Origin: Nostocales cyanobacterium Centralia_MAG_434
Lineage (GTDB): Bacteria > Cyanobacteriota > Cyanobacteriia > Cyanobacteriales > Nostocaceae
Direction: 5' to 3'
Length of the DNA: 46,015 nt
NCBI GenBank assembly: GCA_021324415.1
Contig: JAJPJF010000325.1
Coordinates: 1-46,015 of the forward strand
Positions 23,592 to 40,192 of this stretch are shown here, piece after piece (the stretch's first letter is position 1; every line of letters starts with the position of its first letter). The position numbers and the translations under genes are program-made. Below the pieces are notes generated by a model that did not search any database, was not told where the DNA came from, and saw nothing but the letters and a program-made list of their open reading frames with translations.

Positions 23592-23629
23592 GTTTCAACG
23601 TTGGTTTATATCAAACTCATTATTGACTA

Positions 23630-25390
23630 ATGTTCACACGTTTTTTTAACCGGGAAACACTAATAGTCATAGCTACTGTATTTGTGGTGACTATATGCCT
23701 AACACTAGCGTATGGGTATCTGCCTAAACAAAAAGCCATAACACAGACATCTCATCTACTGACTGATCCATTTCTGCAACTACCAACTGCAACATCAGTC
23801 AGGGTTGTTTGGTTTACTGAGTTTGCTGGTTCTAAACACATGGTCAGTTATGGTGAGAATCTCCAGCGCACTGCTTTTGCTAACACAACGAAACTCAGTC
23901 GCCTACGAGAAGATCAGCAATCACGAGTAGGAAAACAAACTCAAGATGGACAAATTTATCAGCATCCTGTTAAGCGAGATATTTGGCGACATGAAGCTGA
24001 AGTTGTTGAGTTAACACCTGGGAAACGTATTCCTTATCGTGTCACAAGTGTGGAAGAAAATAGCAATTTGGTCAGTAGTCAGATTTTCAGTTTAGCACCT
24101 GCACCAATGCCTAGTACACCGCTGAAAATTTTGCTGACATCAGACCATCAATTGAAACCCATGACAGCAGCAAATCTGCAAAAAGTAGTCAAGACTGTTG
24201 GGCAAGTAGATGCAGTTTTTTTCGCTGGTGACCTGGTTGATATTGCTGATCGTGCTAGTGAATGGTTTGATGATAATCGTGGCAATCCTTTCTTTCCGAC
24301 TTTACAAGGTCGTGCCAAGTATGAAATAGAATTTAATAGAATTAAGACGTCTTATATTGGTGGAGAGATTATTCAACACGCTCCGATGTTTACCACTATT
24401 GGGAATCATGAAGTGATGGGGCGGTTTGGGAGAAAAGGTAGTTTAGGTGGTGAATTTAATGATGCAATTCCCCGTGACATTGCTAAAAAGTTGTACGGTG
24501 CGCAATCGCTGAAAAATAATTCTTTTAATACGGATACTTATGAAGAGATATTCACTCTCCCACAAAGTAAAGAGGGTGGAGAAACTTACTATGCAGTGAG
24601 TTTTGGTGATGTGCGTTTAGTGGTACTCTACGCAGCAAATATATGGCGTACACCCAACTTAGATGCCGCAGCGAGGGGTAAATATCAAGAACGGGAAAAA
24701 GATTTGCAATTTCCTGTTGAATGGGGTTATGGACAACATATCTTTGAACCAATTACTCAAGGTAGCCAGCAGTATAATTGGCTAAGAAAAGAATTAAATA
24801 GTCCTGAGTTTAAAAAAGCAAAATACAAAGTGGTGATGCTTCATTATCCCCCCCATTCTCTGGGTGACAATATTGTACCTGCTTACACCGCTCCAGTACA
24901 GAAAATTGAACGTAATACTTTGAATCAAATTAAAGCAGTGCGTTATGAATACCCTCTGGATGCAGATTATATAATTCGGGATGTTGTACCCTTACTAGAG
25001 GTTGCTCATGTGCAGTTAGTCTTTTATGGGCATTCCCATTTGTGGAATCGCTTTTATAGTCAATTGAAGATGCACTTTTTAGAAACGTCTAATGTAGGTA
25101 ATACTTACGGGGCTTTTTTAGGCAAAAAGCAGCGACAAGTTCCAGTTGAGTATCAAGAGAATTATGTTAAGTTTGGCGATCCAAACGAATTAGAGGCAGT
25201 GATACCAACAATTAGCCCATTGAGTAAAGATGGTCAGCAGATACCATATGTTGCAAGTAATGAAATAACTGTTTTCAGTATATTCAACACAGGTACTGGA
25301 ACAATTACTAGTTATCGTTTTGATACACGCAAACCTGACTCAGAAGTCGTCAAGTTTGATGAGTTTCGATTACAAGTGGATGGAAGCTAG
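23630..25390 (+). CDS. Membrane-anchored metallophosphoesterase with N-terminal fibronectin-like domain
   Basis: The protein is 586 residues. An N-terminal hydrophobic helix (LIVIATVFVVTICLTLAYGY) anchors or exports it. A purple-acid-phosphatase-like beta domain at about 50-155 precedes the calcineurin-type core: LLTSDHQ, FFAGDLVDIAD (GDxx), TTIGNHEVMGR (GNHE), VVMLHYPPHS and FYGHSHLWNR (GHxH), all metal-binding motifs in order. The first DxH motif reads DHQ. It likely hydrolyses phosphomono- or diesters in the periplasm or outside the cell. Its stop codon shares CTAG (25387-25390) with that of the convergent sugar transferase gene. Confidence 0.88.
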   Translation: MFTRFFNRETLIVIATVFVVTICLTLAYGYLPKQKAITQTSHLLTDPFLQLPTATSVRVVWFTEFAGSKHMVSYGENLQRTAFANTTKLSRLREDQQSRVGKQTQDGQIYQHPVKRDIWRHEAEVVELTPGKRIPYRVTSVEENSNLVSSQIFSLAPAPMPSTPLKILLTSDHQLKPMTAANLQKVVKTVGQVDAVFFAGDLVDIADRASEWFDDNRGNPFFPTLQGRAKYEIEFNRIKTSYIGGEIIQHAPMFTTIGNHEVMGRFGRKGSLGGEFNDAIPRDIAKKLYGAQSLKNNSFNTDTYEEIFTLPQSKEGGETYYAVSFGDVRLVVLYAANIWRTPNLDAAARGKYQEREKDLQFPVEWGYGQHIFEPITQGSQQYNWLRKELNSPEFKKAKYKVVMLHYPPHSLGDNIVPAYTAPVQKIERNTLNQIKAVRYEYPLDADYIIRDVVPLLEVAHVQLVFYGHSHLWNRFYSQLKMHFLETSNVGNTYGAFLGKKQRQVPVEYQENYVKFGDPNELEAVIPTISPLSKDGQQIPYVASNEITVFSIFNTGTGTITSYRFDTRKPDSEVVKFDEFRLQVDGS

Positions 25391-26814
25391 TAGGCACCAG
25401 TTTTTTGCACAACTGCTTGGAAAGTTTTCAACAAGATTTCTATATCTAGTCCAAGCGACCAATTCTCTATGTAAGCAATATCTAGTTTCACTGCATCTTC
25501 AAAGTTATCAATGTTAGAACGACCAGAAACCTGCCATAATCCCGTAATACCAGGCAGAACCTCTTGACGGATAAAGTGCGCCTTCTCGAATTTCTCTACA
25601 TCTCTGAGTGGAAGAGGACGAGGACCAACAAGGCTCATCTCTCCAAGTAATACGTTAAACAGTTGCGGTAATTCGTCCAAACTATAACGGCGCAGGAATT
25701 TGCCTAAACGTGTGATCCGAGGATCATTTTTCACTTTGAACAAGACACCATCTTTGATCTCATTCTTTGCTTCTAGGCTTGCTTGTAACTTTTCCGCATT
25801 GGCAACCATTGTCCTAAATTTCCACATTTTGAATTTTTTGCAATGTAGACCAATGCGCTCTTGTCTGAAAAAGACGGGACCTGGAGAATCTAGTTTAATC
25901 AGCACTGCGATCGCCAAATAAACTGGTGACAGTATGAATACCAAAATAGTTGCACAACACAGGTCAAAACCCCGCTTTACCCAAAAATCACCACCTGCGA
26001 TGATTGGTGCTGGAATTGTTAGACACGGAACTTGACCAATCATCCAAAATACAGATTTTGGATGACGTACCTCACTTTGCTCTGGAAGTATTCTGAGAGT
26101 AATGCCAGCTGTGTGGAAATGCCAGCAAACATAAAGACGATTCTTAATGGCATTCCAAGAGACAAAAACTTCTACTATTCCTTCGTTACGGAGATATTCC
26201 AACGTTCTCTCTCGGTTATGTCTGTCAAGACAACTAGAGTCGGCAATTCCTTGTACTGTGTAGCAATTTTCTTGTTCTATTAAACTAATATGCTCTTCTT
26301 GATCTTCTTGATTAGAAATGAGAAAAATGGGATAACGAATTGCTCCTCTCTGACGCAGTAGTTTAGTAACCACATCAAATAATAAGCGATCAATAAAGAC
26401 AAAGGTTACAGACAGAACCCAAAATATGAGAAACGTTGAGCGTGAAACATAGTGCTTTGGTTCGTAAAGAAAAGCAATAAGTAAGAGCAAAACTTCTGAC
26501 GTTGAAACTGCTTGAACCAACGCAGGATAATTACGGCGGTGGCTGCCTGCATTATATAAACCCTTTGATACAAGCATGCCAATTTCTACTGTTAGAATCA
26601 GCACTAGAAAAGACGGTTTTTGTGTCCAAGGAGATTCCATAGCAGTTCCATAATGTACTGCCAATTTCCATGCACAAATTAGAGCGATCGTATCTAGAAA
26701 AATAAGTGTTACTATCCGCAGTAACTTGATAGGTAATCCTCTTTGGATTGTTGTGATTTTGGCTGATCTTAAGTCCGGTTTAAAATTTACTACTGATATG
26801 GTTCTGGAAGCCAC
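25387..26814 (-). CDS. Polyprenyl-phosphate sugar-1-phosphate transferase (initiating glycosyltransferase, WbaP/EpsL type)
   Basis: The protein is 475 residues from GTG 26814. I chose this start because AAGGAGG lies about 10 nt upstream; the earlier GTG 26838 would put that ribosome site inside the coding sequence. Four or five N-terminal membrane helices and a Rossmann-like middle region precede the catalytic C-terminus: FDLCCATILVFILSPVYLAI, RQERIGLHCKKFKMWKFRTM, LGKFLRRYSLDELPQLFNV, LVGPRPLP and PGITGLWQVSGRS. These enzymes put the first sugar phosphate on undecaprenyl phosphate at the inner membrane. A 249-bp gap separates it from the GH10 gene, so it probably has its own promoter. Confidence 0.94.
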   Translation of the reverse strand: MASRTISVVNFKPDLRSAKITTIQRGLPIKLLRIVTLIFLDTIALICAWKLAVHYGTAMESPWTQKPSFLVLILTVEIGMLVSKGLYNAGSHRRNYPALVQAVSTSEVLLLLIAFLYEPKHYVSRSTFLIFWVLSVTFVFIDRLLFDVVTKLLRQRGAIRYPIFLISNQEDQEEHISLIEQENCYTVQGIADSSCLDRHNRERTLEYLRNEGIVEVFVSWNAIKNRLYVCWHFHTAGITLRILPEQSEVRHPKSVFWMIGQVPCLTIPAPIIAGGDFWVKRGFDLCCATILVFILSPVYLAIAVLIKLDSPGPVFFRQERIGLHCKKFKMWKFRTMVANAEKLQASLEAKNEIKDGVLFKVKNDPRITRLGKFLRRYSLDELPQLFNVLLGEMSLVGPRPLPLRDVEKFEKAHFIRQEVLPGITGLWQVSGRSNIDNFEDAVKLDIAYIENWSLGLDIEILLKTFQAVVQKTGAY

Positions 26815-26823
26815 AATTCTAAT

Positions 26824-26830
26824 TCCTCCT
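26824..26830 (-). promoter_or_regulatory. Strong Shine-Dalgarno that fixes the sugar transferase start
   Basis: The minus strand reads AAGGAGG just before AATTAGAATTGTG. The GTG at 26814 is the first usable start after it. Confidence 0.6.
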
Positions 26831-27063
26831 TGTTTCACTGTTAACGCACCCTACTTTGGTAGGTAATACTAATTCATGAAATCATGTCACATATGCGGTA
26901 AATACACAGCTGTTTTTCCTGCCAAAGCTATCATTGTGAATAATTTTCTTCTAAATTGGTACAGTTTTCAAACGAGAATAAAGTCCTTAATATTGACCTG
27001 TCTAAGCAAGTGAAATTAAGACCGATTTTAGAACCTTTTAGAAAGTGACTTAATCAGTTAAAA

Positions 27064-28230
27064 CTAACGCCTCGGAGCTTTGTCAAATGCTCTTGCCATA
27101 GCGTTCCATGCCAATTTAGGTTTCAGTTGTGAGTCCAATGGTAAAGGACGTACTGCTGCTTTATCTGAGCGAGGAGCATAGGTTGAGTGCCATGTATAAC
27201 GATCGCTCAGCCCCCAAGTTAAAACCGCAATGACTGCTGGTTCAGCTAGCACAACTGAAAGATAGTCTTCATAGGTAGCAGCGACAATGCGATCGCGAAC
27301 AGTAAAAGCCGCTGGTAATTTTTGGTCTACTACATCTAATTCGGTAATCAGAATTTTTAGACCTAAACTAGCAACATCAGCTAAAAAACGTCTCAGTTTC
27401 TTTGGATTGAAATGAGTTTCATAACCAGTTAAGTGGGACTGGATACCAAGACCATGAATTGGTGTTCCCTTAGATTTTAAACGTTCCAGCAGTTTCAAAA
27501 CAGCAGTTCTTTTGGCTTCGTCTTTAGGATTATCGTACTCAAGCCCATAATCGTTGTAGACCAGTAAGGCTTTAGGATCAGCTTGGGCTGCAACCCGAAA
27601 GGCAAGGTCAATATAATCGGGACCTAAAAACTGTAGCCAAGGAGTATTTTTTAATCCGTCGGCGCGATTGTCGTTTGGTTCTATTGCCTCATTGACCACA
27701 TCCCAAGAATGCATGTGACCAGCATAGTGTTTAGTTACTGTTGTAATATGCTCCACCAAAAATTTTTGGGCATTTTGTTGGTTAACTGTACTGTTAAACC
27801 ATGGAGGCAGAGCTTCATGCCAAACTAAAGTATGTCCTCGGAACAGCATACCGTGGGTATGGGCAAACTTAGCTAACCAATCTGCTTTGGTGAAGTCAAA
27901 TTTATCTGGAGCTGGGCGGAGAATATTCCACTTAAGTTCCCATTCGGGGACTAAAATGCCGCACTGTTGAGCATAGCTCGTTGCCAATTCTGGGTTAGAA
28001 ACCAGAAGATCTTCTCTTGCAGCCGCGCCATAAAGGATTCCTCTAGCAGACGCATGCTTTCTTAGAGTAATGCCACCAAACACTTTAAAAGTTCTTTTCG
28101 GGTTATCGAGCAATTTGATTTGGTCACTTTGGTATTTAGTTTTTGCTGTCGCAATCACCCCTACGCTACTGAGACTGCCTAAACCTAACAACAGAGCATT
28201 TCGCCTACTTATTAATCTTTTATTGAGCAT
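27064..28230 (-). CDS. GH10 endo-beta-1,4-xylanase-like glycoside hydrolase, Tat-type signal
   Basis: The protein is 388 residues. A twin-arginine segment (RLISRRNALLLGLGSLSS) suggests Tat export. The GH10 barrel is complete, with an acid/base Glu181 in WDVVNEAIE, a nucleophile Glu297 in ILITELDV, and the substrate motifs RGHTLVWH (132-138) and QSHLTGY. It cleaves internal beta-1,4 bonds in xylan-like chains in classical members. Here it is inside an EPS locus and overlaps the preceding transferase gene by 11 bp, so translational coupling and a role in trimming or releasing the cell's own polymer are likely inferences. The native substrate is unknown. Confidence 0.93.
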   Translation of the reverse strand: MLNKRLISRRNALLLGLGSLSSVGVIATAKTKYQSDQIKLLDNPKRTFKVFGGITLRKHASARGILYGAAAREDLLVSNPELATSYAQQCGILVPEWELKWNILRPAPDKFDFTKADWLAKFAHTHGMLFRGHTLVWHEALPPWFNSTVNQQNAQKFLVEHITTVTKHYAGHMHSWDVVNEAIEPNDNRADGLKNTPWLQFLGPDYIDLAFRVAAQADPKALLVYNDYGLEYDNPKDEAKRTAVLKLLERLKSKGTPIHGLGIQSHLTGYETHFNPKKLRRFLADVASLGLKILITELDVVDQKLPAAFTVRDRIVAATYEDYLSVVLAEPAVIAVLTWGLSDRYTWHSTYAPRSDKAAVRPLPLDSQLKPKLAWNAMARAFDKAPRR

Positions 28231-28978
28231 TCAAAATTTCCCGTAAGAATAGTCTCGCTACAAACCAAGGCTCTAGTAAGTAACGCCTCCAAAGTCTTGT
28301 TGGCTCGCTCAATAGGCGATACAACCACTCCAAACCTAATCTTCCCATCCAACGGGGTGGGGTGGGAATAGCTCCAGCGACATAATCTATACAGGCTCCA
28401 CTAGTCAAAATAGCGTTGGCATGGATATGCTCTAGGTTGTCTAAAATCCAGTACTCCTGGCGTGGCATACCCATTCCCACCATTAATACATGGGGTTTAT
28501 AAGCATTAATCGTTGCTAAAGTCGCAAGGTTCTCTTGACTACTTTTTTGAATATTGATATACCCATGAGCGGTAGAAATCTGTAACCCTGGGAATTTCAT
28601 TTGCAATCTCTTAGCCCCTTGTTCCGCAACTCCTGGCTTGGACCCAAGGTAAAACACGCGCCAGTTGTTTTGAGCAGCTGTGGACATTAAGGGCCACACC
28701 CAGTCAGCATACGTCACTCGTTGCTCTCGTTTTAGTGGAAAACCGAGTAATTTCCCAAGCAATACCAAAGGCATGCCATCGATATGCACATAGTCTGCCT
28801 TTGCATAGAAGGCTTGCATTTTGGGGTCGTGATGATAAAGGTAAAGACTATGTAAGTTATGATTAGCAACGATCCACTTTTGATTTTGCTTAATCGCTTC
28901 TGCAATTAACGAATTAAGCTCAGGAATAGAAAGCGCATCTAGTTGAACACCAAGGAATTTGTATGGCGATCGCTTCAT
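28220..28978 (-). CDS. WecB/TagA/CpsF family glycosyltransferase
   Basis: The protein is 252 residues, full length for the family (GT26). Key motifs are IVANHNLHS (about 36-44), ADYVHIDGMPLV with the catalytic-type Asp near 67, RVFYLGSKPGVAEQ, ISTAHGY and VGMGMPRQEYW (donor-binding). A C-terminal basic/aromatic tail (LEWLYRLLSEPTRLWRRYLL) attaches these enzymes to the membrane. It adds a HexNAc or ManNAc(A)-type sugar to a lipid-linked intermediate. The start codon follows a 137-bp spacer from the exostosin gene, and its 3' end overlaps the GH10 start. Confidence 0.95.
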   Translation of the reverse strand: MKRSPYKFLGVQLDALSIPELNSLIAEAIKQNQKWIVANHNLHSLYLYHHDPKMQAFYAKADYVHIDGMPLVLLGKLLGFPLKREQRVTYADWVWPLMSTAAQNNWRVFYLGSKPGVAEQGAKRLQMKFPGLQISTAHGYINIQKSSQENLATLATINAYKPHVLMVGMGMPRQEYWILDNLEHIHANAILTSGACIDYVAGAIPTPPRWMGRLGLEWLYRLLSEPTRLWRRYLLEPWFVARLFLREILNAQ

Positions 28979-29115: not shown

Positions 29116-30237
29116 TTATTTAGTATCATTTCTCGCAACTCCTTGGCAAGGAATTAATTGAAAATGTTGCCATAAATTAGCAAAGAATCCTTCATAAGAT
29201 AAATATTCCTTCCAAATCTTACGACATTCATATTGTAGGTCTATAAATTCTTGAGGTGAGAGATTATTGTGAAACTCTACAACTTTTTCAGCAATATATG
29301 GTAAGTCTTTTTTAGAAACCCAAACGCTATATTTTTTCCAGTCAATTTTGAAGTCATAGGGAAGAACGTAATCAGTATCAATAATAATTGGGATACGTCC
29401 ACAGCAAAATATTTCATAGACCCTCAAAGAACTGTTTCCCCAGCCACGGCAGCAAAGATTGTAATCCGTTTCCACTATGTTACGTACATACTCAAGGCGT
29501 AACTTTAGCTTTTCGCCAGGGTCATTAGTACGAGTGAAAAACACCATTTCGTTGCGAGTTGTAAATTTTGATTCAACAAGTGGGCTTTTACTCAGATACT
29601 TCAAAGCTTCATAGCGTAGGTGGTGTCCCTCATGAATGGGAAAGTAAAAACCTCCAGTTGCTTGTATTAATCCTTGACGAATAGTTTCTTTTAGCTTTCT
29701 TGTATAACTATATCGAGTAGCACAACCATTAAAGCCTATCGTTGGCTTTTCTTGCTTCTGTCGGATAGTCAACTTATCGTCCAGATAATGTTGGACTAAA
29801 TCTTCATAGAATGTGGTATGAACAAAATCCTTAGGTTGCCTTCTCTTACCTATGATAGATTGACGAAAAATAAAAGCATCCTGAATGGGAATTTGTTCAT
29901 GAGAAATATCGCCACTATAAAAAATAACAAGTGGTTTGCCAGCTTGCTTTACCATCTGAGCAAATTGAATCCCTAAAACATAAGCTGACTTATTAATCTT
30001 ATCTTTCCAAGAAAAACCTGTAACCTCTACCCAGTCAAAAGGTAAAATTGCAATATCTGCCTCATCTAAGGAAACAATTTCAAACAGAGAATGGCAGATA
30101 TTGGCATAATTAGCCAGCCTTTTCTCCCAAGGAGGGAGATTGTCTTTTATGTCTTCTGGCCAAAAAGGTTGAAGCATTAAAGTAGGACGGCTACCCTGAG
30201 GAATATATTTGATATCTGAAAAGATTTTGATCTTCAT
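29116..30237 (-). CDS. Exostosin-like (GT47) glycosyltransferase
   Basis: The protein is 373 residues. The recognisable core is at the C-terminal half: CCRGWGNSSLRVYEIFCCGR, IPIIIDTDYVLPYDFKIDW, WVSKKDLPYI, the exostosin-type nucleotide-sugar donor region. The N-terminal half (MKIKIFSDIKYIPQGSRPTL, ILPFDWVEVTGFSWKD) fits bacterial exostosin members. In animals and plants this fold builds heparan or xyloglucan-type chains; bacterial members are mostly found in polysaccharide loci and their linkage is unassigned. It is 37 bp after the preceding glycosyltransferase gene and is probably in the same transcript. Confidence 0.82.
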   Translation of the reverse strand: MKIKIFSDIKYIPQGSRPTLMLQPFWPEDIKDNLPPWEKRLANYANICHSLFEIVSLDEADIAILPFDWVEVTGFSWKDKINKSAYVLGIQFAQMVKQAGKPLVIFYSGDISHEQIPIQDAFIFRQSIIGKRRQPKDFVHTTFYEDLVQHYLDDKLTIRQKQEKPTIGFNGCATRYSYTRKLKETIRQGLIQATGGFYFPIHEGHHLRYEALKYLSKSPLVESKFTTRNEMVFFTRTNDPGEKLKLRLEYVRNIVETDYNLCCRGWGNSSLRVYEIFCCGRIPIIIDTDYVLPYDFKIDWKKYSVWVSKKDLPYIAEKVVEFHNNLSPQEFIDLQYECRKIWKEYLSYEGFFANLWQHFQLIPCQGVARNDTK

Positions 30238-30274: not shown

Positions 30275-31429
30275 TCAAGTCACTTTTGTCTTTGTAAGAA
30301 TTTGAGCTACCACTTGTGCTTTGGCACTCCAAGAATACTTTTCTTGAATAAGGAGATATGCTGTGTTGACTAATTGTTGATATTGCTCTAAGTTAGAGGC
30401 TGCATCTAAAACTGTATTAGCCATCTCTTCAGGTGAATATCCAGTAACAATAAGATGCTTTTGGTGCTGGAATTCTTCTAGTCCTCTCAAACCCTCAGGT
30501 GTTGATATAACTAACTTTTTAGTTGCGAAAAAGTCTAAGGCTTTATTGCGAGCTCCACCCGCCACAGCTTGTTTAGGAAATGGTAAAAGACCTATATCTG
30601 CATAATTGAGATAATTGACAAAATCTGTTCGCTTTGGGAGAAAACCAATAAACGTAATATTGGATGGTAATTGTTGAGCTATATCGCTGCTATCACGACC
30701 AATCACTACAAATTGTACTTTTTGATAATGACGTGTGAGGCGTTTTGCTACCTCAATAGTCATTGATACAGACATGTCATTACTGGGGAACTGAAAAGTC
30801 TTAGGAGCAACTACTACTACTATCTTGGCTGGTCGTAATGCTTGGTATGGATCTTGATTGGAAGAAGGTTGAGCATATAGTAAGTCTTCAGCCACACCAT
30901 TACCTACACAATGTATGTTGCTTGATTTTCGTCGTGGATACCACTGTGAGATCAGTTGGGGCGTTGACTCACCAGCTGCAATGATAGGATTACCGGAAAA
31001 TATAAGTACTCCTTGAGCAATGTATGTCTTAATAAATTGCAGAAACTCCTTAAAAGGATTGGCAACAGAAGATAAACGGCTCCAGTACTCAAAGGCGGAA
31101 AAGGTATGAAAATCTAACACAAGAGAACAATTCTTCTGTCTTTTAAGTGTTAATGCAATAAGAGCAGCTAGTCCAGGCAAAGTTTCTTGAGCGTACACTA
31201 TATCTGGTTGAAACTCCTCGATACACTTTTGTATTGCCTGAACATATAAACGTAAACTTCGTGACCCAACAGATACAGACTGTGCGTAGTTAACTGCTGA
31301 ACAATTTATACCAATTTGACAAGTGTCAAAATATTTGGCTAAATATTGTCCCAGATAAAAGGGTCTGGTAAAAGCACCGAAGGGTTGATTTGAATCAAGA
31401 GTGGAAACAATAACTAAGCGTTTACTCAT
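30275..31429 (-). CDS. Glycosyltransferase family 4-type
   Basis: The protein is 384 residues from ATG 31429 (MSKRLVIVSTLDSNQPFGAF); a GTG at 31456 would overlap the upstream gene by 8 bp and add nine residues. The GT-B fold is shown by DIVYAQETLPGLAAL, VVAPKTFQFPSND, FVVIGRDSSDIAQQLPSNIT, FIGFLPKRTDFVNYLNYADI and LLPFPKQAVAGGARNKALDF. The expected E-x7-E donor motif is altered here to AGGARNKALDFFATKK. It transfers a sugar from an NDP-sugar to the growing repeat unit at the cytosolic face. Confidence 0.88.
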   Translation of the reverse strand: MSKRLVIVSTLDSNQPFGAFTRPFYLGQYLAKYFDTCQIGINCSAVNYAQSVSVGSRSLRLYVQAIQKCIEEFQPDIVYAQETLPGLAALIALTLKRQKNCSLVLDFHTFSAFEYWSRLSSVANPFKEFLQFIKTYIAQGVLIFSGNPIIAAGESTPQLISQWYPRRKSSNIHCVGNGVAEDLLYAQPSSNQDPYQALRPAKIVVVVAPKTFQFPSNDMSVSMTIEVAKRLTRHYQKVQFVVIGRDSSDIAQQLPSNITFIGFLPKRTDFVNYLNYADIGLLPFPKQAVAGGARNKALDFFATKKLVISTPEGLRGLEEFQHQKHLIVTGYSPEEMANTVLDAASNLEQYQQLVNTAYLLIQEKYSWSAKAQVVAQILTKTKVT

Positions 31430-31448
31430 TAGAGCTTTGTTGTTAAGT

Positions 31449-32315
31449 TTACTCACAAAAAGTAGGAGATGTACTCATATCTCTATAACCAAATACAGCA
31501 CGCAAATAAGGCAATACCCAATAAAAAAACCAGAATGGACCAGAATGTCTCCGGATAAAGACAGTCCATGCTTTTATTGGAAAAGCCTTGGGTTGAAGTG
31601 CTTTCCTCAAACGTTCATAAACCGGAAGGTTGGTATCTACCCAGCTCCCTTGAACAGAATTTTTACGGCAAGTACCTACAAATCCAGCTGCCATCCATAC
31701 CGAACAACCCAACTTGCGTGCTCTTAATCCGTAATCCATATCTCCTAAGCTATGAATGAAAGCAGAATCTAAATTACCAACCTTTTGGGCAACAGAAGAT
31801 GGAATGAGAACACAGTTGCCATACATTGTGTCACATTCTTGAATTTCATCAGTCGGTTGCAAGAATTCATACTTATTGGAGTACCATTTCTTTGAACGTA
31901 CAGCACCACCATAAGTTGCTTTACCTGTTACTAAATCTTGGGTTGAGCCGACAATTATGGAGTCAGAAAAACCTTTCTCTGTAAGGAGATGGTGTGTTGC
32001 AAACAGTTGACTCAGAGCATTGGGATAAAGTATGGTGTCGTCATTTAGCCAAAGATAATAGTGATAATTCTCTTTAAGAGCTTCAGCAAATGCTAGACGC
32101 ATTCCTCCTACCCAGAAAAGGTTACCATTGCCTTTGAGGAGTTTAACTGCCGGATAGTTTTTCTTAACTGCATCTGAGGTGCCATCTGAACTGCCATCAT
32201 CAACTAGGTAAACATCAAAAATGACATTCTGTTGATAAAGTGCTTGCAAACAACTCAAGGTTGTATCTCGTCTGTTATAGCAGGTTATTAGCACTGCTAA
32301 CTTAACACTATTCAT
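31449..32315 (-). CDS. Glycosyltransferase family 2
   Basis: The protein is 288 residues with a classical GT-A core: LAVLITCYNRRDTTLSCLQA, YLVDDGSSDGTSDAV, KLLKGNGNLFWVGGMR, and the DxD-like metal site LWLNDDTILYPNA. Later motifs GAVRSKKWYS and LDSAFIHSLGDMDYGLRA (acceptor/base loop) match rhamnosyltransferase-like GT2 enzymes of surface polysaccharide loci. The acceptor and linkage are unknown. The start MNSVKLAVLITCYN is standard and the gene is 35 bp after the polymerase gene. Confidence 0.93.
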   Translation of the reverse strand: MNSVKLAVLITCYNRRDTTLSCLQALYQQNVIFDVYLVDDGSSDGTSDAVKKNYPAVKLLKGNGNLFWVGGMRLAFAEALKENYHYYLWLNDDTILYPNALSQLFATHHLLTEKGFSDSIIVGSTQDLVTGKATYGGAVRSKKWYSNKYEFLQPTDEIQECDTMYGNCVLIPSSVAQKVGNLDSAFIHSLGDMDYGLRARKLGCSVWMAAGFVGTCRKNSVQGSWVDTNLPVYERLRKALQPKAFPIKAWTVFIRRHSGPFWFFYWVLPYLRAVFGYRDMSTSPTFCE

Positions 32316-32350: not shown

Positions 32351-33664
32351 TTAAACTGTTACTTCTAAATTGTTGGAATACTGAGTCTGTTGTTGTTTTC
32401 TTCGGAATCGACTCAACTCTAGAGATGACGAAATAGCTATAGATACGTAAGTAATCCAAAATATGGAGTTTGGCTCAAGTATTGTTGGGCTATCACTTAT
32501 ATTAGAGACTACTTTAACTCCAAGAAATACGAACATCCAGAAGTATTCTATACTTCTAGTTGAAAAAACTAGAATCAACACTCTTATTAACAAGAATGAT
32601 AAGTTGAGTATAAATAGTAGTAAACCCAATAATCCAAGCTGTAAGAACAGGTCTAAAAAGCCATTATGAGAAAGACCAGCTTTTTGTTGTTGACCAAATT
32701 CTACGTCTTTGGACCCTTCCTCAGGTGCTCCTAACCAAGTATGGGATATAACATAATCAGCAGCATCTGATGACCAAAACCCATGATATCCATAGCCGAA
32801 AAAGGGTTTTTCTAAACCTTTTTCAATACTGTGTTCCCATATTGGCATACGCCCATTAAATTTGGTATCTTTTCCTAACCCATCAACGAGTATAGTTTTT
32901 AGATTTACTGTGATTCCAACAGCTACAACAGTGCTTAGTAATAATATTATGGTAAGAGAAACAACTCTGTGACCTCGTTGCTTTACAATTTGGTAAAGAG
33001 GTAGCAAGAGTAATGAGAATACAAAAACTATTAAACCTGTTGTACTGTTAGAAAGCTTGAGCAATAAAAGTGCAAATATCATACAAATGCCAGCAATCCA
33101 TCGATTACTGCGTCTATCAAGAAGAGTAATTAGAAACAAGGAAGCTGCAAAACCCATAACACGACCCAACATTTGTTTATGGTCAAAGACTCCCCTCCAA
33201 GAGAGAACACCATTGATCACATGAGTGCCATAAGATGGAATGAGTGTAGCCGCAGCTAGGCTAAGTACCATAATGATAGAAAATACCCACGCCAACAAGC
33301 GCATCTGCTCTTTAGGCGTATATCGCATCGCTAAATACGCCCCAAACAAAGTTGTACGCAACATGCCTTTTACATTTTCTGCCGTGCTCGATACATCTGC
33401 AGACCAGAAAATTGAAGCCGCACAAAAAACAACTAGTAACAGTAAAGATTTATCTTTGGTAGCAACGTAAGCAAAATGCTTCCATCTTCCAATAATTAAT
33501 AAGAATAAAATTGCATAGCTAGCAATATTAAAGATGGTTGGTATGGGACTAGGTAAGACGATACCTTGACCAAAAATAAATAATAATAGAGTCCCAATTA
33601 ATTCTAGAATTGTTATTGCTTGCTGAGATATTGGATGACGCAATTTATGCCTCTTAACTTTCAA
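32351..33664 (-). CDS. O-antigen ligase/polymerase (Wzy/ExoQ-like)
   Basis: The protein is 437 residues with about 11 membrane helices. A large periplasmic loop contains the conserved HNGFLDLFLQLGLLGLLLF motif (Wzy_C/O-antigen ligase signature), preceded by GYGYHGFWSSDAADYV. Such proteins join lipid-linked repeat units in the periplasm. Given the flippase and Wzc homologue in the same cluster, polymerase is more likely than ligase. The gene is 51 bp after the preceding glycosyltransferase gene. Confidence 0.88.
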   Translation of the reverse strand: MKVKRHKLRHPISQQAITILELIGTLLLFIFGQGIVLPSPIPTIFNIASYAILFLLIIGRWKHFAYVATKDKSLLLLVVFCAASIFWSADVSSTAENVKGMLRTTLFGAYLAMRYTPKEQMRLLAWVFSIIMVLSLAAATLIPSYGTHVINGVLSWRGVFDHKQMLGRVMGFAASLFLITLLDRRSNRWIAGICMIFALLLLKLSNSTTGLIVFVFSLLLLPLYQIVKQRGHRVVSLTIILLLSTVVAVGITVNLKTILVDGLGKDTKFNGRMPIWEHSIEKGLEKPFFGYGYHGFWSSDAADYVISHTWLGAPEEGSKDVEFGQQQKAGLSHNGFLDLFLQLGLLGLLLFILNLSFLLIRVLILVFSTRSIEYFWMFVFLGVKVVSNISDSPTILEPNSIFWITYVSIAISSSLELSRFRRKQQQTQYSNNLEVTV

Positions 33665-33715: not shown

Positions 33716-34990
33716 TTAAGAAATTTTTTGATTTGAAAAGTAGTTAGTATGAATTTCATTAAAAAGTGTTAAGTAGCGATGGGCTTGGATTTCTAGAGTA
33801 AATTCTTTTTCTGCTTTTTTCCGGGCACAATGGGATAGACTCTGATGTCTGTCTGAATTTTCTAGTACCCAAGCAATTCCTTTTGCTAAATCCTCAACTT
33901 CGTATGGCTTTGCTAAGTAGCCATTTTGTTGATGATCAACTATATCTTTTAAACCAGTGGCATTGAACGCCACCACTGGAGTGCCACATGCTAGAGATTC
34001 GGAGGCAGTCTGTCCAAAGGACTCCTGAAGAGATGGTACAACCATCACATCAGCAGCAGAGTAAGTCAATGCTAATGAGAGATCATCTTGAAGGTACCCA
34101 AGATAATGGGCCTTAAATGCTAAATCCGCACCTTGATTTTCTGGTTGAGCTTGACCGAAAATAACTATATCAAGTTTATCTTTCCAATCAGCTTTACTTA
34201 ACTCTAAAAGAGCAGCTTGCAATAGATGAAATCCCTTTCTCTTGTCGCTTGTTGCCTGTATAGCGCCAAATAAGACGAGTGGCTTGTTATGAGGTAAATT
34301 AAGTACTTCTCTTGCTATGCGTTTATTGATAGGTCTATATTTCTGTATGTCAAGCCCGTGAGGAATGACTTCGATTGGGAAATCATAAAATAGGGAACTA
34401 GAACTGGCAGACTTTGCTAACCACGAGCTAGGTGTAACAATTGTTAAATTTAAATCTTTCCAAGCTTTCGCTTTGCGTTGCCAAATCCAACTAGATAAAT
34501 CGTAGTCTTTGTTGCTGTCAAGTTGAGGACAGCGTCCACACGAAGCTTTGTAGCGATCGCAATCCAAACTACAATGACACCCACCAGTAAATGCCCACAT
34601 ATCATGAAGAGTCCAGATTAAAGGGCGTTTGAGCTTGGCAAGTGTTTCTATTTGCACAAAGGCTGCATTAATCCAATGCAGATTGATAATATCGGGGTTA
34701 ATTCGCGTGACTTCAGAAAGGACTCTATCTGGTACCCATTGAAGAGAAAATGTAGTCCTGGCACGTTGACGATAGAATTTCAGCGGCAAAGCATCAAAAG
34801 TGAGTTTTGAGCGTGCTATGCCTTGAAACAATCTAATCTTGGGAGCATTTACTGTTTTGTCATCACTAAATTTCTCCTGCACCAGCATCTGAGAGTTGAC
34901 ATTGATATTCAGTAATCCCTTATGCAAACGATAGGCAGCCCTTGCTGCACCACCATTAGTGTCAGATGTACTAATGTGCAAAATCTTCAT
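33716..34990 (-). CDS. Glycosyltransferase family 4 (WcaC-like)
   Basis: The protein is 424 residues. It starts MKILHISTSDTNGGAARAAY, a family-typical nucleotide-sugar/acceptor loop, with LHWINAAFVQIETLAKLKRP and IWTLHDMWAFTGGCHCSLDC following. The C-terminal GT-B donor motif Ex7E is visible in VPSLQESFGQTASESLACGT followed by PVVAFNATGLKDIVDH. The Cys-rich segment CHCSLDCDRYKASCGRCP is common in this GT subset and might bind metal. It adds one sugar of the repeat unit in the cytosol. Confidence 0.93.
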   Translation of the reverse strand: MKILHISTSDTNGGAARAAYRLHKGLLNINVNSQMLVQEKFSDDKTVNAPKIRLFQGIARSKLTFDALPLKFYRQRARTTFSLQWVPDRVLSEVTRINPDIINLHWINAAFVQIETLAKLKRPLIWTLHDMWAFTGGCHCSLDCDRYKASCGRCPQLDSNKDYDLSSWIWQRKAKAWKDLNLTIVTPSSWLAKSASSSSLFYDFPIEVIPHGLDIQKYRPINKRIAREVLNLPHNKPLVLFGAIQATSDKRKGFHLLQAALLELSKADWKDKLDIVIFGQAQPENQGADLAFKAHYLGYLQDDLSLALTYSAADVMVVPSLQESFGQTASESLACGTPVVAFNATGLKDIVDHQQNGYLAKPYEVEDLAKGIAWVLENSDRHQSLSHCARKKAEKEFTLEIQAHRYLTLFNEIHTNYFSNQKIS

Positions 34991-35016: not shown

Positions 35017-35970
35017 TTACAGTTTCTTTGAGAGAGCTTCTTGATTTTTCTTCACAATTTTCTTGATGTCATTTTTGAGCAACTGTAGATAGGTAGGATT
35101 ATATAAATTCTTTTGCATAATTTTATCGGTTTTATGATCTCGAACTATAAATGGTGGATGCTTTAAAGGAAAATCTACCGCTTCAGTGGGCAAACTTTCA
35201 AAGGGATGTTTTTTATTAGAATTAAAATGAGTCGAGTCTGTTCCGAATCCAATATTAGAAATTAAATTTACATTTGAGATAATACCAAAGCTACTCTGTA
35301 CGAAACAGGCAAAAGTCCACTGATAATCCCAAGTTATACCTAAAGGATTTTCATAAATAGATTGGAAGATCTGACTCCAAAACTTAACTTCTAAAGGATC
35401 GAGGAGAATATCTTTGAGAAAGCCTTCCGATTGAATCTCTTTCCAAAGCTTAATGTATAGATCATAATGCTGCCAAGCACGTTTCCAGCTTGCCCAACCC
35501 CAACAGAGGTTATAGCGTGAGAAGAAGTAACTGTAATTTGTTCGCCTATGCTTTAGTAAAACATTTTGTCCCGAGATAGACGAAATCCGAGTATCATATC
35601 TATATTTCTCTAACAATTCCTCACAAAAGCGAAAAAATGTGGGATGAGGTAAACAATCATCTTCTAAAATAATTGCTTCTTCAACATTACTGAAAACCCA
35701 ATCTAATCCGCTAGATACACGTTTTGCACAGCCTAAATTAGGAGTAGAGTAATTTTTGAGCACCTCACAATCCCAATCAACTCGTTCAATAATCGAACGA
35801 GCAGCTTCACACTTTTCTATTTCTCCAGGAATATGAGCCCGTGGTCCATCTGCAATGACCAAGAGTTTTGGTGGTTTTGCCTGTCGGATTGCTTCAAATA
35901 CCTTTTCAGTAGTATGAGGTCGCTTAAAAATAAAAAAAGCTACTGGAGTTTTTAATTTAAATTCAGACAT
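35017..35970 (-). CDS. Glycosyltransferase, GT2-like (sugar transferase of EPS type)
   Basis: The protein is 317 residues. The start MSEFKLKTPVAFFIFKRPHT, then LLVIADGPRA, NLGCAKRVSSGLDWVF and AIILEDDCLPHPTFFRFCEE show a GT-A fold with an EDD metal site. CWGWASWKRAWQHYD is the acceptor-binding loop typical of these hemolysin-like/GT2 sugar transferases. The C-terminal helix is Lys-rich (NDIKKIVKKNQEALSKKL). The coding sequence is AT-rich. It is 27 bp after the flippase gene. Acceptor and product are unknown. Confidence 0.9.
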   Translation of the reverse strand: MSEFKLKTPVAFFIFKRPHTTEKVFEAIRQAKPPKLLVIADGPRAHIPGEIEKCEAARSIIERVDWDCEVLKNYSTPNLGCAKRVSSGLDWVFSNVEEAIILEDDCLPHPTFFRFCEELLEKYRYDTRISSISGQNVLLKHRRTNYSYFFSRYNLCWGWASWKRAWQHYDLYIKLWKEIQSEGFLKDILLDPLEVKFWSQIFQSIYENPLGITWDYQWTFACFVQSSFGIISNVNLISNIGFGTDSTHFNSNKKHPFESLPTEAVDFPLKHPPFIVRDHKTDKIMQKNLYNPTYLQLLKNDIKKIVKKNQEALSKKL

Positions 35971-35997: not shown

Positions 35998-37362
35998 TTA
36001 TTTTTTTATTGTATTTTTTAATATTTTTTTGATATAAATAAGTCCTGTATTAAGGTAACTTTCTAGGATTAATGCTTTCGTCTGTTTAATAAAAAATCTT
36101 CTAGATTTGAAGAAAAATGCGCCAGCCAGATATGAAGCGACACACTGAGCTACTAGAGTAGAAATGGCTGAACCTACGCCTCCGTAGGTTTTAATCAAAA
36201 AGTAGTTTAAGACTAAGTTAACAATTGCACCAATTGCTGTTGCTAGAAATGCTAAATGCATCAGATTCTCGGCTGTTGTCCACAAACTTCTAACGAGTCC
36301 ACTTGAGACAAATACTCCAGTCCAAATGTGAATCGATAGGATCAACCCTGCTTCTTGATACCTTTCGCCATAGAGTAAATTGACAATCTGATTAGATAGT
36401 AATGTGACTCCTATGGCAACCGCATAAGATAAGATTGACAAAAAATCAAGAACTTTTTGGAATCGTTCGTAGTACAACCTGGGATTTTCTTGCTTGACTT
36501 TTAAAATTGATGGAAAAACGGAACTAGTGATTGCTGTTGGCACGAAATACCAGAGTTCTGATATCTTGACGGCTGCTGAATAAATTCCCACTGCTTGGTC
36601 ACCAAGCATTTGACCTAGCATGACCTGATCCATCCGCATGAAAATCATGATGACAAAACTTGAAAGGATCAGTGTCCAGCTATCCCGCAGTAATTGCGTT
36701 GCACAACGCCAACTAAACCGCCAAGCTTTCAGCACATATCCTTGGATGCGGTATGCAGCTACCAGCCCCAAAGCAGTGAGCAAAAATTCAGATGAATATG
36801 CCCAAGCAAATAAAATTAATGGAGCTTGTATTTGGATAAGTAAAACTCTGCCGCAGCTAATAAATATCAAGCCTAAGTTCTTAAACAGAACTGCATGTTT
36901 TGACTGAACTTGAGATTGAAACCAAAAATCAATAACGTAGAATGATTCAAAAATCATTCCCCCAGCAACAATCCCCACTAACCATTGGGTTATGGTGTCG
37001 TGAGGACGGAGTAGGACGATAAGCGCGATCGCTGATATTAAAGCTACGACTTGAGCAACCGCCTTAAGGATGAAAGCAGTACCTAAAATTTCATCCTTAG
37101 AAGAGGGTTGATTGACAATATCACGTATAACAATACTGTCGAGTCCCAAGTTCGCGACTGTGTCGAATATGAGGGTAAAAGCGAGCGCATAATTGAAAAG
37201 ACCAAATTGGTCTGGTCCAAGGTAGCGAGCAACCCAAACTCCTACCACCAGTCCTATAGCCATCCGCAGAATTCTATCAGCGAATAACCAAGCTGTATTG
37301 CCCACAATTTTGAGTAAGTTAGGGCTCAACCTTTGGGTTACTGCCGTTAGCTTATTGATCAT
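35998..37362 (-). CDS. Oligosaccharide flippase (Wzx type, MOP superfamily)
   Basis: The protein is 454 residues with about 12-14 hydrophobic helices. The start of the conserved core is FADRILRMAIGLVVGVWVAR, then YLGPDQFGLFNYALAFTLIF, typical of Wzx/RfbX. Later segments GIYSAAVKISELWYFVPTAI, and the C-terminal half with YGGVGSAISTLVAQ, fit the family. It moves lipid-linked repeat units from the cytosolic to the periplasmic face of the inner membrane. The C-terminal tail is Lys-rich. It is followed by the glycosyltransferase gene after 27 bp. Confidence 0.94.
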   Translation of the reverse strand: MINKLTAVTQRLSPNLLKIVGNTAWLFADRILRMAIGLVVGVWVARYLGPDQFGLFNYALAFTLIFDTVANLGLDSIVIRDIVNQPSSKDEILGTAFILKAVAQVVALISAIALIVLLRPHDTITQWLVGIVAGGMIFESFYVIDFWFQSQVQSKHAVLFKNLGLIFISCGRVLLIQIQAPLILFAWAYSSEFLLTALGLVAAYRIQGYVLKAWRFSWRCATQLLRDSWTLILSSFVIMIFMRMDQVMLGQMLGDQAVGIYSAAVKISELWYFVPTAITSSVFPSILKVKQENPRLYYERFQKVLDFLSILSYAVAIGVTLLSNQIVNLLYGERYQEAGLILSIHIWTGVFVSSGLVRSLWTTAENLMHLAFLATAIGAIVNLVLNYFLIKTYGGVGSAISTLVAQCVASYLAGAFFFKSRRFFIKQTKALILESYLNTGLIYIKKILKNTIKK

Positions 37363-37428: not shown

Positions 37429-39645
37429 CTATCGTTTTTCTACAACCTTTGAGCGGGACGGTTTTTTAAGTGCAGAATTTTGCAAACCAAAGTCTTGGTC
37501 AAGCTGTTCTGTTGTGTAGTAGAAGTAGCTATCTGGCTCACGCTTAACGTTCACACCGTTAATCACCATTCCTAAAACATTTTGACCTGAATGAGTCAAA
37601 AATTCTTTAGCTGCATTGGCGCTGGTGACACTAACCACCTTTGGACGAACGACTAGTAAGATGCCATCAGCCAATTTACCCAAAACCGAAGCGTCTGCTG
37701 TTCCTGCTAATGGAGGAGTATCAAAAATCACAAAATCATATTCACTAACAAAGGAGGCTAACAAGGTAGCCATTCGCTTGGAATCTAGTAGCGCTATTGG
37801 GTTAGGTGGTAATGTTCCTGACGGAATGACAAATAGGTTAGAGACAACCTCGTGTACAACATTATTAACATTGGCTTCATTCACCAGGACATCACTTAAA
37901 CCTGATTTATTCGTTAGTCCCCAGATATGATGCTGGATTGGACGGCGCATATCTGCATCAACTAACAGTACCTTATGTCCAACTTGAGCCATAGTCATAG
38001 CTAAATTGGCAGAGACTTCAGATTTTCCTTCCTTAGAGACAGAACTTGTAATTGCAATCGCTCTAAGTTTTTTATCTGAATTTAGGAACTTCAAGTTTGC
38101 TTGCAGCATTTGGTATGCGTTACCAAGTGGAAACTGAGGAATATCCCTACCAATCACCTGAGGAATGGGTCGATCTACATCTGAATGAGAACGCCTTTCG
38201 CCTTTTCTACTCAAAGCTGGAATGACTCCAAGTGGGGTGTATTGGAACAGATCCTTAGCTTGTTTTAGAGTCTTAACAGAGCGGTCAATCAGATCTAAAC
38301 TGAGGGCAGTTATGACACCCAGTAATAGACCAAGTACACCTCCACCTGCAACAGTCAATTGCTTTCGAGATCCAGAAGGCTTGTCAGGTTGTAAAGCAGG
38401 GGAAACAATACGAGCATTTCCAATATTTTGGTTTTCTGCGACTTGAACCTCTTGTAGTCTTGTTAAGAGTGCTTCGTAAGTAGTTTGAGATGCTTTTAAC
38501 TTACGCTCAAGCTCCCGTTGAGTCTCTTCTAATTTGGGCAGAATATTTGCTCGTTCTTTATAAAGCTCTCTCTTGTGAGAGAGTGTAGCGATTTGTTTTG
38601 CTAAACCAGAGCGTTCTGCTTCAGAACGGGTAAAATCCTCAATAAGCTTTTGTCTGAGATCGCCAATCTGTAAATTACCCGAACTCACTCGCTGATTACT
38701 GCCAACTGCTTGTTTGATCCGCTGTTGTAGCAAGTTATTGAGCACGATAGCCCTTTCTTGTAGATTAAGAATAGTAGGATGTTGTGGCTGTAACCGAGTT
38801 CGAGCTACGGCAAGCTGACCTTGTACATCTTGAAGTTGCGCTAGTACTTGCTGAATTCCTGGTACTTGACTCAAAGAGGCAAAGGTTGCTGCTTTTTGTG
38901 ATGCGATCGCAGCTTGCTTCTGCAACTTTTGTGACCTAGCAGTTGCATCTACAAGTTGTGCTTGATCCTGAGCGATTTGCTCTTCTAACTTAGAAATTTC
39001 TTGGACTGTTGCCGTTGCTTGTTCTTGCAAGGCAATAATTTTATTATCCTCTTTAAATTTACGCAAGGCTGACTCTGCCGCTTTTACAGATGCTTCAGTT
39101 GCTGGCAGTTGCTCCATAATAAACTTACGAGCAGCAACAGTCTCTGCTCGATTTGCCTCAATATTATTACGGATATACTCTTGCATCACTTTGTTGACAA
39201 CTTTGGCAGCAACCACTGGATTCTCGTCCATATAAGACACTTGCAGAACCTCAGTGCCTTTGGTACCTTCAACCTTAAGTTTTTTGGTAAAATTCCGAAT
39301 TTTTAAGGGTTGGCCTTGATCGTCTCTCAGGTTAAGATCTGTAATGGTTTTCTCAATAACTGGAACAGATCCAACAATTTTTGCTTGAGTATCTGACGGG
39401 CTGTCGTTGATTGCTAAAGACTCTACACGTCCGAGAGGTTCCCCCATACCTGTTAGGGAGGTAGTATGGTTTGTCTTGATTAACAAGCTGCCCTCAGCCT
39501 TATATGTAGGTTTCAATGATAATGCATTTAAGAATGCAACACTAACAACAGCTACAAAAACTCCTACTGCAGGTACCCAATGTCGCTGCAAAACCAGCAG
39601 ATGTTTGTGAAGATCTATTTCTTCAATGTTTCGTGTAGGTTCCAT
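37429..39645 (-). CDS. Wzc-like polysaccharide co-polymerase and tyrosine autokinase
   Basis: The protein is 738 residues from ATG 39645 (MEPTRNIEEIDLHKHLLVLQ). The frame is open much further upstream (to 39900), but that part is an antisense-free overlap of another gene in a second frame. The Wzz domain has a first membrane helix at about 32-48, a long periplasmic coiled coil (about 180-420) and a second helix near residue 440. The BY-kinase domain has Walker A SSVSKEGKS, Walker A' VLLVDADMRRP and Walker B FVIFDTPPLAGT. The tail holds a Tyr cluster (SYFYYTTEQ). It controls polymer length and export through cycles of autophosphorylation. Walker A carries Glu in place of the usual Thr after Ser. 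Confidence 0.95.
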   Translation of the reverse strand: MEPTRNIEEIDLHKHLLVLQRHWVPAVGVFVAVVSVAFLNALSLKPTYKAEGSLLIKTNHTTSLTGMGEPLGRVESLAINDSPSDTQAKIVGSVPVIEKTITDLNLRDDQGQPLKIRNFTKKLKVEGTKGTEVLQVSYMDENPVVAAKVVNKVMQEYIRNNIEANRAETVAARKFIMEQLPATEASVKAAESALRKFKEDNKIIALQEQATATVQEISKLEEQIAQDQAQLVDATARSQKLQKQAAIASQKAATFASLSQVPGIQQVLAQLQDVQGQLAVARTRLQPQHPTILNLQERAIVLNNLLQQRIKQAVGSNQRVSSGNLQIGDLRQKLIEDFTRSEAERSGLAKQIATLSHKRELYKERANILPKLEETQRELERKLKASQTTYEALLTRLQEVQVAENQNIGNARIVSPALQPDKPSGSRKQLTVAGGGVLGLLLGVITALSLDLIDRSVKTLKQAKDLFQYTPLGVIPALSRKGERRSHSDVDRPIPQVIGRDIPQFPLGNAYQMLQANLKFLNSDKKLRAIAITSSVSKEGKSEVSANLAMTMAQVGHKVLLVDADMRRPIQHHIWGLTNKSGLSDVLVNEANVNNVVHEVVSNLFVIPSGTLPPNPIALLDSKRMATLLASFVSEYDFVIFDTPPLAGTADASVLGKLADGILLVVRPKVVSVTSANAAKEFLTHSGQNVLGMVINGVNVKREPDSYFYYTTEQLDQDFGLQNSALKKPSRSKVVEKR

Positions 39646-39697
39646 AGCAGATATTGATCTCGCTAATGCATTTTGTTTTGTTAAGACTGTAATCGGC

Positions 39698-40192
39698 TTA
39701 ATTGTGATACCGGAAATCCTTACTGCCGTTACAGCTAACTCTTCGTGAATTTCTGCGTGTAAACTCACTGACGGAAGGATTTCCCTCAGGGTCAACAACC
39801 CCCATAACCTGTTGCCAAAGTTCCATCGATGCAACAGACACCTTGTATGTGTGTGTCCTCTTTTGGACGTGATACCACTTCGTTTCCCTGCATTGATCAC
39901 ACCAAAAAGCTTCTAACCACTCACCTACTAGAGGTACTGCAGTTTTACTAGCTACCAATATTAAAGCGTTCTGTCGGCCTATTCCTCTTTGCTGAAGTTG
40001 TCCAGCACGATCCGCAAACATTGGATATTTTTGACTCACGCTGTCTAAGTAGCATTCATGAACTGGACAGTAAATAGCCCGCCGCTTTGAACGCTTCCGA
40101 TTTCGGTCACATCGTCTCTGCAATTTGATAGCCTCCTCTGTATAGAATTCAACTAAAGAGAATTGAGTGGAAATACAAGATCGAGTTGGCAA
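39698..40192 (-). CDS. Conserved cyanobacterial cysteine-rich protein, function unknown
   Basis: The protein is 164 residues from TTG 40192 (MPTRSCISTQFSLVEFYTEE). A stop codon in frame just upstream and the recognisable conserved N-terminus leave TTG as the only reasonable start, and no Shine-Dalgarno is obvious. Three putative metal-binding patches are visible: YCPVHECYLDSVS (CxxxxC), FWCDQCRETKWYHV (CxxC) and a basic linker RNRKRSKRRA. The C-terminus ends EGNPSVSEFTRRNSRR. I know this type as a recurring cyanobacterial hypothetical. It is the first gene of the apparent EPS transcript, 52 bp before wzc, so a regulatory or assembly role is possible but unproven. Confidence 0.8.
   Translation of the reverse strand: MPTRSCISTQFSLVEFYTEEAIKLQRRCDRNRKRSKRRAIYCPVHECYLDSVSQKYPMFADRAGQLQQRGIGRQNALILVASKTAVPLVGEWLEAFWCDQCRETKWYHVQKRTHTYKVSVASMELWQQVMGVVDPEGNPSVSEFTRRNSRRVSCNGSKDFRYHN

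Follow-up and report, generated by a model that had tools for sequence, protein, structure and literature searches.

A GH10 glycoside hydrolase encoded in a Wzx/Wzy gene cluster of a Nostocales cyanobacterium probably acts on the exopolysaccharide of its own cluster

The GH10 glycoside hydrolase described here is best read as a Tat-exported, retaining endo-beta-glycosidase that probably acts on the exopolysaccharide (EPS) made by its own Wzx/Wzy cluster, a reading that is drawn from genomic context and published analogues and to which we assign a probability of roughly 0.6. The gene lies in a stretch of 46,015 nucleotides from Nostocales cyanobacterium Centralia_MAG_434 (assembly GCA_021324415.1, contig JAJPJF010000325.1, positions 1 to 46,015 of the forward strand), which we refer to as the window. 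In the pathway that we propose, the initiating transferase would act first, and the other transferases, probably including the WecG/TagA/CpsF enzyme encoded next to the hydrolase, would build the repeat unit, which Wzx would flip and Wzy together with Wzc would polymerize. The folded GH10 enzyme, in the periplasm or outside the cell, would cut the chain at a beta-linked bond that has gluco or xylo configuration and could thereby limit chain length, release chains, or clear stalled polymer. As a guess, WecG may itself make the bond that is cut. The enzyme would be a cluster-specific accessory that is dispensable for synthesis.

The earlier note on this DNA had described a GH10 gene overlapping a WecG/TagA/CpsF gene by 11 bp in an EPS setting, and this description holds. 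Both open reading frames are present (Table 1), with WecG upstream and GH10 downstream; the end of the former overlaps the start of the latter, so that bases 28220 to 28230 are common to both, and the minus-strand genes on either side belong to a Wzx/Wzy cluster. A purine run, GGGAAA, stands directly 5' of the GH10 start. The WecG protein scores 192.5 bits against a Pfam cut-off of 27.4, and its matches to the equivalogs EpsA, TarA, and PRK03692 all fall under their cut-offs. Scans for promoters (14 sites, with 15.3 [sd 3.5] in shuffled sequences) and for terminators (7 sites, with 4.9 [sd 2.7]) yielded nothing clear. The start proposed for Wzc in Table 1 is the likelier one: with the listed GTG, the gene overlaps a small upstream open reading frame by about 200 bases, and the ATG comes directly after that frame. 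Among the cluster genes, we found no outer-membrane exporter; in Synechocystis, the exporter gene for synechan is described as located elsewhere in the genome (PMC8205485).

Table 1. Genes of the EPS cluster in the window
Feature	Position	Strand	Support and remarks
Initiating polyprenyl-phosphate sugar-1-phosphate transferase (WcaJ/WbaP type; PGT)	25387..26838	minus	TIGR03025 406.1 bits, cut-off 295.55
GH10 glycoside hydrolase	27064..28230	minus	388 aa; Pfam Glyco_hydro_10 E 4.3e-88
WecG/TagA/CpsF (GT26) glycosyltransferase	28220..28978	minus	252 aa; Pfam Glyco_tran_WecG E 6e-57; TIGR00696 128.6 bits, cut-off 69
Exostosin-type (GT47) glycosyltransferase	29116..30237	minus	Pfam 9.2e-11
Group 1 glycosyltransferase (GTa)	30275..31456	minus	Pfam; adjoins GH10 in paralogous cluster
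GT2 glycosyltransferase	31449..32315	minus	Pfam
Wzy-type polymerase	32351..33664	minus	Pfam Wzy_C 3.4e-18
GT4 glycosyltransferase	33716..34990	minus	Pfam
Probable glycosyltransferase (GTx)	35017..35970	minus	no Pfam match; function suggested by position; also in related clusters
Wzx-type flippase	35998..37362	minus	Pfam Polysacc_synt 7.1e-26
Wzc-type co-polymerase / BY-kinase	37429..39900	minus	start probably ATG of MEPTRNIEE, 3' of listed GTG

Two further features adjoin the cluster. On the plus strand, at 22476-25390 and directed toward the cluster, genes for an acyltransferase-3 and for a calcineurin-like or purple-acid-phosphatase-like metallophosphoesterase may serve in EPS modification. 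Directly upstream of Wzc, at 39698-40192 on the minus strand, a small Cys/His-rich protein is encoded that has CPxHxC and CDxC motifs (seen by eye) and no Pfam match. In Rhizonema (L067) and Scytonema (L079), a protein of this kind is encoded upstream of the GH10 gene. Among 285 cyanobacterial genomes, 48 have matches at E up to 1e-5, although some of the matches contain stops, and the protein thus represents a conserved unnamed family that extends beyond this cluster.

The GH10 domain is full length (296 bits against a cut-off of 22.1; profile positions 2 to 310 of 311 in Pfam). When aligned with 1xyz, N180-E181 and T296-E297 fall on the catalytic glutamates of strands 4 and 7, so that the catalytic pair, with E181 as acid/base and E297 as nucleophile, is intact. 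H133, W137, N180, E181, Q264, H266, E297, and W339 are invariant in an alignment of 13 GH10 sequences, and both catalytic glutamates are conserved in all 105 GH10 proteins compared (57 that are linked to EPS clusters and 48 without EPS markers nearby). An AlphaFold model (mean pLDDT 86.2) has its closest PDB match in Thermotoga petrophila Xyn10B with xylobiose (3nj3; TMt, the TM score by target length, 0.91; 32% identity), and the top 20 Foldseek rows are xylanases or the xylanase/cellulase Cex (29-35% identity, TMt 0.84-0.93). In keeping with the Tat export named in the earlier note, the N-terminus (MLNKRLISRRNALLLGLGSLSSVGVIA) has by its motif (SRRNALLLGLG) a twin-arginine-type signal, which is followed by a hydrophobic stretch; both were judged by eye. 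Twin arginines occur within the first 60 residues of the open reading frame in 54 of the 57 cluster-linked GH10 proteins and in 41 of the 48 others, and, because the pattern is permissive and so common in the latter group, the feature is not specific to the cluster-linked enzymes.

The GH10-WecG arrangement is real and recurrent. Of 292 cyanobacterial genomes, 24 have a GH10 match, which exceeds the cut-off in 23 of them, and 271 have WecG. The 31 GH10 stretches considered (30 fetched and the window) cover 32 of the 34 listed matches, the two weakest, G062:C32 and G053, being left out. Of these 31 loci, 12 have a WecG gene no more than about 10 kb away, compared with 0.42 expected by chance from WecG copy number and a rounded genome size; the frequency of the pairing in cyanobacteria, which the earlier note had named as a check, is therefore above expectation. 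For a wider set, we joined the best 80 of 590 relatives from a scan of named genomes to the cyanobacterial set and recorded five markers (WecG, PGT, Wzx, Wzy, and Wzc) within about 10 kb. At least two markers accompany 57 of the 110 GH10 genes in this set, 5 have one, and 48 have none; contig ends limit what could be called at a locus, as does the use of profiles derived from the window proteins and their matches, and the chance estimate above covers WecG alone, not this two-marker count. Left out before counting were L086 of Calothrix NIES-3974, which we regarded as the region already represented by L055, the truncated L134, and L064 and L065, which are missing from the aligned set (less than 60 bits or not found with our own profile). 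By eye, the 57 comprise 38 cyanobacterial genes and, from among the best 80 relatives, 19 from other groups, including Geobacter (L080), Rhizobium (L129 and L130), Methylobacterium, Aureimonas, Phreatobacter, Granulicella (L123), Mariprofundus, and more. With at least two markers at 57 of 110 loci and several groups represented, the placement of GH10 close to Wzx/Wzy genes is widespread; among the papers listed from the open-licence literature, we found none that treats it for cyanobacterial EPS clusters.

Several loci show other arrangements. Two GH10 genes occur in one EPS cluster at L046:8020-11320, where they flank WecG, and at L156:5192-9142, where they lie on the same side of WecG; duplication or two different cuts could account for this. 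In L056 and L057, a window-like WecG and transferases are present, but the GH10 is a distant one, encoded on the opposite strand at distances of 257 and 381 bases, possibly a hydrolase replacement. The GH10 protein at L041:9304-11067, with none of the five EPS markers nearby, has three SLH stretches and is probably held at the surface for that reason.

That GH10 genes recur close to Wzx/Wzy-type genes in several phyla argues against an ordinary xylanase that serves to degrade external plant or algal xylan and sits among EPS genes by happenstance, as do the altered E-N-x-x-K motif discussed below and the finding that, in the 20 of 39 window open reading frames scanned with Pfam (all beyond the first 17.9 kb), there is no other glycan-degrading or sugar-binding domain. 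We consider such an enzyme unlikely, even though the nearest solved structures are xylanases or Cex, GH10 proteins without nearby EPS markers are present in Cyanobacteriota too, and an OprB-type "carbohydrate-selective" porin is encoded at 17973-19811 of the window.

The likely substrate of the GH10 enzyme can be approached through the strand-1 motif E-N-x-M/L-K of GH10 xylanases, which we take to line the -2 subsite. In the alignment with 1xyz, this motif corresponds to E96-W97-E98-L99-K100, and the GH10 paralogue of the same genome has E-W-E-L-E at this position; the motif that is conserved in xylan-specific GH10 enzymes is thus absent from the window protein. In the literature, we found no published support for a -2 subsite role of these residues; the Asn44 discussed in the accessible text of PMC5811086 belongs to a GH11 enzyme. 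Because a conserved xylanase feature is missing while the catalytic centre is intact, xylan is not a safe guess. From cluster to cluster, the loop differs (EWELK, EWEFK, GFLK, GFY, and EWDLK, among others, grouped by eye) and the catalytic centre stays constant. The motif Asn is retained in 12 of the 57 cluster-linked enzymes versus 36 of the 48 without EPS markers (Fisher p 2.7e-8 on raw counts; the 5 one-marker enzymes were excluded, and the group without markers holds many Acidobacteria). As a mark of EPS context, loss of the Asn has no significance after correction for relatedness (median p 1), with 16 changes on the tree and 6 supported independent pairs. In that tree, the GH10 nearest to that of the window is L066 of Fischerella sp. 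PCC 9431.

The earlier note had expected beta-1,4-linked xylose or glucose-like segments in the polymer, and the two differ in how well they fare. Everything that points to xylose comes down to the closeness of the fold to xylanases and to the neighbouring GT47-type gene, the product of which matches the C-terminal domain of RXYLT1, a xylosyltransferase, under the threshold (E 0.004). GT47 was found with our own profile in 3 of 111 GH10 loci and is therefore not the general companion of GH10. Given the EWELK sequence and a loop that varies, beta-1,4-linked xylose is a weak inference. A glucose-like beta-1,4 bond is plausible by analogy. GumM, a GT26 enzyme of xanthan synthesis that acts after the initiating transferase, is described as making Glc-beta-1,4-Glc (PMC4443731), which makes a gluco-configured beta-1,4 bond a reasonable candidate here; GumM resembles the window WecG as a member of the WecB family, and the beta-1,4 glucosyl bond is GumM's. 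Promonan, whose cluster contains WecG and GH10, is likewise described with 3- and 4-linked Glc, Gal, and GlcA (PMC11340318), so that a Glc-like beta-1,4 bond may plausibly be the one that is cut.

Next in probability, and also unlikely, is a stricter model in which GH10 synthesis is obligately coupled to that of WecG and GH10 cleaves a polymer with beta-1,4-xylose or glucose segments. For its chemical part, this model can draw on the GumM bond and the sub-threshold RXYLT1 match, while the Trp in place of the xylanase Asn and the rarity of GT47 speak against xylose. Its genetic part draws on overlaps between the two genes in the window (11 bp), Fischerella L066 (8), and Anabaena UHCC 0204 L075 (4), but these make up 3 of the 40 cases in which WecG lies upstream on the same strand, so that the overlap is not conserved across relatives. 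Overlaps counted, the spacing is at most 20 bases in 8 of the 40 and at most 100 in 17, the remainder being farther apart (the GH10 start was taken as the ATG nearest the twin arginines or, if none precedes them, as the frame's first start codon). WecG is on the opposite strand in 7 cases and downstream of GH10 in 5, one of which is a second, paralogous cluster on contig 306 of the window genome that has the order GTa, GH10, WecG, PGT and a gap of 387 bases between GH10 and WecG. Overlaps are also not special within the window cluster, given that GT2 and GTa overlap by 8 bp. Taken with the 3 of 40 and the reversed order in the paralogue, this makes the GH10-WecG overlap a local detail, from which coupled translation in the window may still be surmised.

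Nor does GH10 accompany one type of WecG. A WecG-seeded search (E up to 1e-40) of 148 genomes of the order gave 25 places in 21 genomes, and, of the 24 examined (G388 was left out), 8 window-like WecG genes have GH10 in their fetched flanks, which suggests that GH10 is an accessory. WecG proteins at least 60% identical to that of the window occur at 7 places, and GH10 is near 3 of them (both copies of the window genome and G229) and not near the other 4 (L146-L149). The fixed translational tie proposed by the earlier note is not supported by these counts: the genes overlap in 3 of 40 cases, WecG follows GH10 in 5 others, and 4 of 7 close WecG relatives have no GH10 in their fetched flanks. We also reject the idea that GH10 is obligately paired with one type of WecG, given that GH10 is near 8 of 24 and that, in the aligned sets, 9 other WecG proteins encoded near GH10 are 28-74% identical to the window WecG and 12 other GH10 proteins are 52-62% identical to the window GH10. 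A special co-variation of GH10 and WecG is not borne out either, because WecG correlates by rank with the GH10 pairwise distances no more closely than the other parts of the cluster do, whether over all clusters (WecG 0.49, Wzx 0.49, Wzy 0.59, PGT 0.73, Wzc 0.76) or in cyanobacteria only (0.38, 0.36, 0.23, 0.35, and 0.49, respectively).

The least probable of the alternatives is a GH10 transglycosylase that would transfer EPS chains, once cut, to an acceptor at the surface or link them to one another, thereby anchoring or sizing a capsule; it would fit the retaining mechanism of GH10, which permits transfer, the variation of loops at the donor-side motif in the cluster-linked enzymes, and the probably surface-held relative L041, but deletion of prmN, the GH10 gene of the promonan cluster to which we return below, is described as having no visible effect.

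Action of the window GH10 on its own polymer may be one case of a broader pattern. Tentatively, and at somewhat less than even odds, the EPS-cluster GH10 "xylanases" of cyanobacteria and their relatives elsewhere could be cognate EPS-processing enzymes with a donor-side loop that has been repeatedly reshaped for each repeat unit, such that the loop type could serve to read or predict polymer structure. Should these enzymes indeed cut their own polymers, each would offer a specific reagent, ready to use, with which its polymer could be sequenced, sized, and released, and annotating them as xylanases would be misleading. The chemistry of cyanobacterial exopolysaccharides is rich and poorly resolved, and the GH10 case offers a simple test of the role of a hydrolase inside the Wzx/Wzy pathways of phototrophs.

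PelA and AlgL are, as we propose for the window GH10, EPS-degrading enzymes that are encoded beside EPS synthesis and trim or clear polymer; we take both to belong to enzyme families other than GH10 and to serve synthase-dependent pathways, and EngXCA2 of Xylella fastidiosa is presumably also of another family. The hydrolase activity of PelA is described as leading to low-weight secreted Pel (PMC9894940), and AlgL as clearing alginate from the periplasm (PMC8829089), roles that were shown experimentally there, whereas we infer that of the window GH10. EngXCA2 is described as a beta-1,4-endoglucanase that shortens the bacterium's own EPS (PMC10653819), which resembles our proposal, with the difference that its substrate is known. 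PssW of R. leguminosarum was considered as a hydrolase analogue and set aside: the accessible text of PMC9961541 does not contain the words hydrolase, glycanase, or xylanase, and that of PMC6628131 names no family.

The direct precedent, and at the same time a caution, is the prm cluster of Sphingomonas sp. LM7, which as described contains, like the window, a GH10 enzyme (PrmN) in a Wzx/Wzy cluster with an initiating transferase and a WecG/TagA transferase (PrmH), along with Wzx, Wzy, and Wzz/CapB (PMC11340318). The host is an alphaproteobacterium, PrmN is encoded six genes from WecG, and a second hydrolase, the GH16 enzyme PrmQ, carries the phenotype, its loss leading to rugose colonies; the likeness rests on the published description. 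Deletion of prmN is reported to leave colony morphology and EPS production unaffected (PMC11340318), so that PrmN, the best precedent, is not proven to edit its polymer. The proposal of the earlier note that the hydrolase edits or releases the polymer is thus tempered by that deletion, but it stands as the best reading by context and analogues. Compared with the GH10 xylanases (Thermotoga Xyn10B [3nj3/1vbr], 1xyz, and Cellulomonas Cex), the window enzyme has the same fold, catalytic pair, and other aligned active-site residues, and it differs from them in its altered E-N-x-x-K motif and its genomic setting.
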